NCBI GenBank assembly: GCA_902567235.1
Contig: CACFLX010000002.1
Coordinates: 62,001 to 126,000, forward strand
DNA length: 64,000 nt
Direction of reading: 5' to 3'
DNA from: an uncultured Pelagibacteraceae bacterium
GTDB lineage: Bacteria; Pseudomonadota; Alphaproteobacteria; Pelagibacterales; Pelagibacteraceae
Part shown: positions 51,130 through 53,403 of the stretch, piece after piece
Layout of the letters: every line of letters begins with the position of its first letter
Numbering within the stretch: position 1 is the first letter of the stretch
The notes under the pieces: generated by a model
Databases searched by the model: none
Seen by the model: the letters and a program-made list of their open reading frames with translations, nothing else
Told to the model about the DNA's origin: nothing
Position numbers and translations under genes: made by a program

Positions 51130-51158
51130 TTGACAGTACTTTAGAATCATTATAAATT
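51130..51158 (+). promoter_or_regulatory. Putative katG promoter
   Basis: A perfect -35 TTGACA (51130-51135), 17-base spacer, TAAATT (51153-51158; TATAAA at 51151-51156 is the alternative). Transcription would start within 3 bases of the katG ATG, leaving virtually no leader. Confidence 0.6.
51140..51156. promoter_or_regulatory. Candidate Irr-binding ICE box overlapping katG promoter
   Basis: TTTAGAATCATTATAAA matches the iron-control-element consensus TTTAGAANNNTTCTAAA (from memory) in all but one of the 14 fixed positions. It lies between -35 and -10 and covers the -10, a repressor position, just downstream of the gene for an Irr-type protein. Confidence 0.6.
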
Positions 51159-51165
51159 ACATCTA

Positions 51166-53403
51166 ATGTCAAATGAATTAATAAAAGAAAAATCAAAATG
51201 TCCTTTTACAGGTGCTGGAACACCGCCAAAATATCCAACAGGCAAAGGACAAACAAATAAAGATTGGTGGCCTAACAGTCTAAATTTAAAAATTTTAAGT
51301 CAACATTCATCATTGGTAAATCCAATGGGAGAAAAATTTAATTATAAAAAAGAATTTAAAAAACTTAATTTTAAAGCATTAAAAAAAGATCTTCATAAGT
51401 TAATGACTGATACACAAGATTGGTGGCCTGCAGATTATGGTCATTATGGTCCATTTTTTATTCGTCTTGCTTGGCATGCTGCCGGAACATATCGAACAGG
51501 AGACGGAAGAGGTGGTGCTGGAACTGGGAATCAAAGATTTGCTCCATTAAATAGTTGGCCAGATAATGTAAATTTAGATAAAGCAAGGCTTTTACTATGG
51601 CCTATTAAAAAGAAATATGGAAAAAAAATATCTTGGGCAGATTTATTTATACTTGTTGGAAATATATCTCTAGAGTCAATGGGTTTCAAAACTTTTGGTT
51701 TTGGGGCCGGAAGAGAAGATATATGGGAGCCAGAAGAGGATATTTATTGGGGATCTGAAAAGGAATGGCTTGGAGTAAATCGGTATAGTGGAAAAAGAGA
51801 ACTAGAAAATCCCTTAGGAGCATCACACATGGGCTTAATTTATGTTAACCCTCAAGGACCTGATGCTAATCCAGATCCTTATTTGGCTGCTCATGACATT
51901 AGAGAAACTTTTGGACGTATGGCAATGAATGATTATGAGACGGTAGCACTCGTTGCAGGAGGACATACATTTGGAAAATCTCATGGTGCAGCACCAGAAT
52001 CACATAAAGGTCCTGAGCCAGAAGGTTCAAAGATTCAAGATCAAGCAACCGGTTGGAATAGTAACTACAAAAGTGGTTTAGGTGTAGATGCTATTAGTAG
52101 TGGTATTGAAGGTGCATGGACTTCAAACCCAATCAAATGGGATATGGGATATTTTGATAATTTATTTGGCTATGATTGGGAATTAACTAAAAGCCCTGCA
52201 GGAGCTCATCAATGGAAACCTAAAAGGAATGGTCATGATATAGAAATGACTCCAGACGCTCATGATAGATCTAAAAAAAATCTTCCAATGATGCAAACTA
52301 CTGATCTTTCATTAAAATTAGATCCTAAATATGGGCCAATTTCTAAACATTTTCATCAAAATCCAAATGAATTTGCCGATGCCTTTGGAAGAGCTTGGTT
52401 CAAACTTACTCATCGTGATATGGGTCCAAAAGCAAATTATCTTGGTTCTGACGTTCCAAAAGAGAATTTAATCTGGCAAGACCCAATACCAAAAAATAAA
52501 TATAAACTTAAAAATAAAGATATTGAGTTATTAAAGAAAAAAATATCAAAATCTGGTTTATCCGTTTCCCAATTAGTTACGACTGCATGGGCATCAGCAT
52601 CAACTTTTAGAGGATCAGATAAAAGAGGAGGTGCTAATGGAGCAAGAATAGCTCTTGAACCTCAAAAAGACTGGGAAATTAATAATCCTTCAAAGTTGTC
52701 TGCTGTAATCAAAATTTTAAATAAAATTAAAAAAGGATTTGATTCAAAAAATAAATCAGTTTCATTAGCAGACTTAATAGTTTTAGGAGGATCGGTTGGT
52801 ATTGAAAATGCTGCCAAAAAAAGTGGTAAAAAAATAAAAGTTCCATTCAAATCTGGAAGAGGTGATGCAAAACAAGATCAAACAGATAAAAATTCATTTA
52901 ATCTTCTTGAACCCATAGCAGACGGTTTTAGAAACTATATTAAGCTGCATGCTAAAGGATATGCCAATGGAAAAGGTATCCCTGTTAATTCAGCAGAAGA
53001 AATGCTAATAGATAAAGCCCAACTTCTTGGATTAACTGGTCCAGAAATGACAGTTTTAATAGGAGGTATGCGAGTGATAAATACTAACTTTGATGGTTCA
53101 GATTATGGTGTATTTACAAAAAAACCTGGATCATTAACCAATGATTTCTTTGTTAATTTATTAGATATGAAAACTACTTGGAGAGAAGTAGATAAAGAAG
53201 AACAGTTTTTTGAGGGAATAGATAGAAAAACAAAAAGAGTAAAATGGAGAGCGACGCGTGCAGATTTAATATTTGGATCTAACTCTCAATTAAGAGCACT
53301 ATCTGAAGTTTATGCAACAGACGATTCAAACGAAAAATTTTTAAATGATTTTATATCTGCTTGGACAAAAGTAATGAATTTAGATCGTTTTGATTTAAAT
53401 TAA
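51166..53403 (+). CDS. katG: Catalase-peroxidase KatG
   Basis: Heme enzyme destroying H2O2. 745 residues, full length. Distal site Arg-Trp-His in [20 protein letters not shown]; the Met-Tyr-Trp adduct residues appear as W in the same block, Y in [12 protein letters not shown] and M in [18 protein letters not shown]; proximal His in [11 protein letters not shown]. The second, heme-free duplicate domain (~420-740) is intact. No signal peptide. Many SAR11 genomes are thought to lack catalase, so this is of interest. AT-rich codon use is like its neighbours. It ends 5 bases from the convergent SH3 gene. Confidence 0.97.

Follow-up and report, generated by a model that had tools for sequence, protein, structure and literature searches.

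The window analysed here is a stretch of 64,000 nucleotides from a 1.13-Mb genome of the Pelagibacteraceae (SAR11), in which a regulator gene and a catalase-peroxidase gene lie between two blocks of genes whose synteny is conserved in relatives, the order being fabI-fabB-fabA / irr-katG / SH3-thiF. The left border is formed by fabA (50075-50578, minus strand), with fabB (48864-50075) and fabI (48075-48860) beyond it, and the right border by genes on the minus strand for an SH3-domain protein (53409-53858; Pfam SH3_4/SH3_3) and a ThiF-family protein (53837-54595; Pfam ThiF). The position after irr, which we call the slot, is occupied in this genome by a katG gene of what we term type A (51166-53403, plus strand), a single open frame encoding the 745-aa scavenger of the slot. 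Its product matches the NCBIfam catalase/peroxidase models NF011635 and TIGR00198 over their full length (1224 bits against a cut-off of 981, and 1142 against 770) and aligns end to end with KatG of Burkholderia pseudomallei, keeping the distal Trp/His, the proximal His and the Trp-Tyr-Met adduct motifs. It is thus a complete KatG and a predicted catalase-peroxidase, which confirms the preliminary description of a full-length katG with its active-site residues directly after an Irr-type gene.

The 138-aa regulator, encoded between fabA and katG (50658-51074, plus strand) and recognized by profile matches, belongs to the Fur family. In NCBIfam it scores best with IrrA (126 bits against a cut-off of 150) and Irr (114 bits against 170), PerRA (64 bits) and Fur (38 bits) being weaker. 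Because its nearest models are those of IrrA and Irr, yet it stays below their curated cut-offs (NF045678/NF045677), as does the homologue of the relative L189 (146.9 against 150), we name it Irr-like; the earlier label "Irr-type" stands as to the nearest family but not as to the curated thresholds. The PerR-type ligands H37, D85, H91, H93 and D104 are identical in all 98 distinct SAR11 homologues. Irr proteins generally have these same five ligands, so that they do not discriminate Irr from PerR. None of the 98 homologues has a cysteine at any of the four positions of the Cys4 structural zinc site of PerR. The histidines of the heme-binding HxH motif (H91 and H93) occur in 98/98 and a complete HHH in 97/98, and no homologue contains a CP motif of the N-terminal heme regulatory type (GCPWH); according to a passage of PMC3413700, the Irr of Rhodobacter sphaeroides is also devoid of GCPWH and still binds heme.

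Upstream of katG, a -35 hexamer TTGACA (51130-51135, plus strand) is separated by 15 bp from a proposed -10 hexamer TATAAA (51151-51156, plus strand), which lies in the right half of an ICE-like operator, TTTAGAATCATTATAAA (51140-51156); the katG ATG comes 9 bp after this operator. Scored against the ICE and PerR box consensus sequences as generally known, TTTAGAATCATTATAAA fits each at 13 of 14 positions, which upholds its earlier description as an ICE at all but one position covering the -10. It is the sole 13/14 match to the ICE in the window, where seven others reach 12/14. Since the genome is AT-rich and ICE matches with up to two mismatches are not enriched genome-wide (71 against 127 for a reversed control), a single site of this kind is weak evidence, and it is the comparative data described below that make TTTAGAATCATTATAAA a candidate operator beyond chance. 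The perfect ICE, TTTAGAANNNTTCTAAA, is rare, occurring in 3 of 99 genomes of the genus against several dozen matches of the reversed control (raw counts that do not model composition), the form typical of the family being TTAKAATNATTMTAA-like. The window holds one full operator only and no clear operator before irr. A half-site ATTCT at 51119-51123, located by register with the relatives L004, L008 and L009, might be what is left of the second, upstream operator present in many relatives at a distance of 30-32 bp.

Comparison among relatives reveals that the slot after irr is interchangeable: it may hold a type A katG as in the window, a katG of a deeply diverged second type (B), or a module built around an aerobic-type rubrerythrin. 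The slot of the genera g2 and g4 is filled by a KatG with just 53-58% identity (type B), behind the same operator in 10/10 cases. A long, well-supported branch splits types A and B in the KatG tree, and KatGs from other phyla fall on the A side, the outgroups having been picked by similarity to type A. In genomes devoid of katG, the slot contains genes for a one-domain aerobic-type rubrerythrin, a GlpC-like Fe-S oxidoreductase and a DUF3501 protein, the same module as the known three-gene RBR-RFO-DUF3501 cluster of aerobic-type rubrerythrins (PMC5114695), here placed after irr and furnished with operators as for katG. Among 397 genomes of the family, katG was found in 274 and rubrerythrin in 64, with zero overlap, and all 53 rubrerythrin genes that could be located adjoin irr, starting 109-131 bp after it. 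A tree of FabAB implies at least 14 changes between katG and rubrerythrin, nine of them (for the rubrerythrin label) forced by well-supported branches, a count to be taken as a guide, since FabAB is the slot's neighbour and may have travelled along with it. An 820-kb contig of a different lineage, whose record is named Gammaproteobacteria (L074), carries a type A katG (KatG 77% identical), with a converging irr-like gene (40% identical) and a perfect ICE. The contig L118 (G000 contig C19) is possibly chimeric: at ~1516-3017 the ORFs of its right part resemble spurious rRNA frames, unlike SAR11 genes.

The operator proved to be tied to irr. It scores at least 12/14 in 128 of the 129 distinct slot promoters linked to irr (77/77 before type A katG, 10/10 before type B katG and 41/42 before rubrerythrin) against 6 of the 21 promoters where irr has been lost or is unlinked, these 21 including 8 promoters of unlinked type B katG, none of which has it. 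Among type A katG promoters without irr, 5/12 still reach 12, so decay is incomplete. The difference between linked promoters and those with lost or unlinked irr gives a Fisher's p of 5e-15, a value overstated by the relatedness of the sequences; dinucleotide shuffles reach at least 12/14 in 1.3% of cases, and none of 31 katG upstream regions from other taxa has the operator. These observations strongly support a putative regulatory coupling between Irr and the operator, and the ICE-like site, whose conservation the preliminary description had proposed to examine across SAR11 genomes, is kept upstream of katG wherever irr adjoins and is often decayed where irr has gone. In genomes without irr in the slot, only a weak Fur-like match, or none, was found elsewhere, so the gene has been lost rather than moved. 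A trace of such a gene can be seen in L023, where the start of an irr pseudogene lies between fabA and katG and runs into an in-frame stop (MSNNNIFIEKLRSSGLI*TKQR). The operator before irr itself is distributed unevenly, reaching at least 12/14 in 42/43 rubrerythrin genomes versus 42/68 type A genomes, and the window is among the type A genomes that lost it.

The geometry of these promoters is equally regular. Many slot promoters contain two operators, and the spacing of 44 of 54 such pairs is 30-32 bp, or about three turns of the helix; TTGACA lies in between, and the second operator covers the -10. TTGAC occurs in 126 of the 129 irr-linked upstream regions, and where a TATAA comes after it within promoter range, the spacer measures 15-18 bp (mostly 15-17); rubrerythrin is fronted by the same layout as katG. 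At 107 of the 129 sites, the two halves of the operator differ, one reading TATAA and the other TAGAA/TTCTA, so that a single deviation from the ICE palindrome can create a -10. This layout predicts that a bound regulator would repress by occlusion. In one genome (G266; L289:3984-4995) irr is followed by neither katG nor rubrerythrin, yet an operator pair is kept there along with TTGACA and a ribosome-binding site; this orphan pair looks like the scar of a deletion.

Few sites of this kind exist elsewhere. In the 99 genomes of the genus we counted 70 copies of the exact core TTTAGAATNATTATAAA, against 11 matches of the reversed control. Of the 70, 68 belong to irr or to the position immediately behind it: 44 before katG, 23 before irr and 1 in the orphan position of G266, the 2 others being elsewhere, both in G218. 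A search for additional targets admitted one mismatch to the core operator and covered 12 well-assembled genomes; its near-matches, together with a few exact sites of other genomes, gave 39 non-irr cases. These candidates were rejected, 33 of them lying inside genes and the sites being unconserved as promoters. At this stringency, the conserved promoter sites belong to irr and to the gene in the slot, and the iron regulon that the preliminary description had implied was not seen. An exact operator or a perfect ICE was also seen before genes for periplasmic binding proteins of transporters (L167 and L264 in G218, L159 in G063; position 1501), and could be accidental or mark an additional target in a small number of strains.

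The katG gene is not the strain-specific trait that it had been taken for. Of the 397 genomes of the family, 274 encode KatG, as do 93 of the 140 of high quality; such a frequency in the clade is what the preliminary description had itself named as refuting this part of its reading. The presence of katG in most offshore genera of the Pelagibacteraceae has already been reported in a passage of PMC12636525. Descriptions of SAR11 as catalase-free go back to Pelagibacter ubique, which has been cited as having neither catalase nor other defences (PMC3033426). A recent acquisition by this strain was likewise rejected, locus and type being common to several genera. Our data agree with PMC12636525 on the presence of katG; the passage concerned contains no mention of irr, regulation or the exchange with rubrerythrin. 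For the irr-katG/rubrerythrin exchange itself, we found no report in the literature searched, outside which most subscription journals lie.

We propose that the Irr-like protein would be a local repressor serving peroxide defence specifically. By binding the ICE-like operator in which the slot promoter has its -10, it would block RNA polymerase, and in many relatives the second operator, three helical turns upstream and by the -35, would be bound as well. In most relatives, Irr would also bind the operator between irr's own promoter and its start codon, the site that the window has lost. An inducing signal would then inactivate the regulator and turn on the slot gene: katG in the window, the divergent katG or the rubrerythrin module in relatives. 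Gene content, the conservation of the operator, its frequent decay upon loss of irr, the promoter geometry and the exchange of the slot gene are observed, and we infer that the protein bound there is Irr and that it acts as a repressor; that it represses itself and one peroxide scavenger, as a local repressor of the slot, appears to us quite probable. As to the signal, the case for peroxide or metal, in the manner of PerR, is at least evenly balanced and perhaps a little better. Operators of the family fit the ICE (mean 12.69/14) and the PerR box (12.67/14) equally, with a PerR-like inner AATNATT, which makes a signal of peroxide or metal no less probable than one of heme or iron.

The alternatives differ in what they ask of the operator, the protein and the signal. 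The simplest would be that the sites are TATAAT-like elements of AT-rich promoters resembling the ICE by chance, with which the lack of genome-wide enrichment of matches with up to two mismatches agrees; the conservation of the site with irr and its frequent loss without it, the concentration of 68/70 exact cores at one locus and the equal spacing of pairs before unrelated genes make this extremely improbable. The operator might instead be real but bound by the other Fur-family protein of the genome, a second match to this family being present in most genomes. This is also improbable: the operator has often decayed in irr-less genomes, most of which keep the weak Fur-like match, and operators cluster at irr itself. 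With the Irr-like protein as the presumed binder, a further rival is the classical Irr logic put forward in the preliminary description, in which Irr accumulates at low heme or iron and represses katG, sparing iron, and is removed when these suffice. In its favour are the nearest protein family, the HHH of 97/98 homologues, the 13/14 match to the ICE and the repression under iron depletion exerted by Irr in the species reviewed in PMC3413700. Against it, the homologues are without a GCPWH-type heme motif and no iron-gene promoters were recognized among the close operator matches. Expression data point the same way: in iron-limited P. ubique, mRNA of the rubrerythrin SAR11_0399 rose 1.57-fold (P=0.025) and the SAR11_0401 protein 2.2-fold, the abundance of the Irr protein remaining unchanged (PMC2864753). 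We found no evidence that a defence consuming heme is made only under sufficient iron, and the one published data set on the equivalent gene runs counter to this idea, with the reservations that the rise in mRNA is small and that SAR11_0399 is assumed, from katG-less relatives, to be the slot gene beside irr. We regard the classical logic as unlikely.

A peroxide- or metal-responsive local repressor is accordingly favoured over the heme/iron logic, to which we would give something under a third of the weight. In its PerR-like form, which is a sub-case of our best explanation and differs from the classical Irr rival in the signal, a metal-loaded repressor would have the histidines of its metal site oxidised by peroxide and leave the DNA, so that H2O2 would induce the scavenger. 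The five ligands including D104, invariant in 98/98 homologues, an operator fitting the PerR box as well as the ICE and carrying the inner AATNATT, and targets consisting of irr itself and one peroxide scavenger all speak for it, and a rise at low iron would fit the loss of a metal-loaded repressor. On the other side, Irr is the nearest family and PerR models score about half as much, the Cys4 zinc site is absent, and the ligands are shared by Irr proteins generally. We consider the arguments for this form evenly balanced.

Local Fur-family regulators beside catalase genes are known from mycobacterial furA-katG and from PerR-katA. The SAR11 locus resembles them in having a regulator with PerR metal-site residues that adjoins and apparently controls a catalase gene, and differs in its Irr-like regulator, its ICE-type operator and the swapping of the controlled gene for another katG or a rubrerythrin module. 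With the Irr/ICE systems of other Alphaproteobacteria (Bradyrhizobium, Brucella, R. sphaeroides) it shares the nearest regulator family and an ICE-fitting operator; by contrast, its conserved operators lie at irr and one adjacent scavenger rather than across an iron regulon. A link to peroxide defence has a precedent in R. sphaeroides, where, according to passages of PMC3413700, Irr binds the ICE of both genes with predicted Irr boxes, mbfA and ccpA, which serve in peroxide defence; Irr did not bind katE, and its effect on catalase there is indirect. We put forward tentatively, as plausible though somewhat short of even, that in SAR11 an Irr-like regulator would have been reduced from an iron regulator to a one-locus switch sensing peroxide rather than heme, while the effector behind its fixed promoter changed time and again among two unrelated KatGs and a rubrerythrin module.

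Who removes hydrogen peroxide from the surface ocean is an open question. Most sampled SAR11 genomes possess exactly one of two alternative types of scavenger, usually at one regulated position, and the content of this slot predicts which lineages would be able to destroy peroxide and which may depend on their neighbours. Our results also suggest that, in the most abundant marine heterotroph, Irr may answer to peroxide defence and not to a broad iron regulon.
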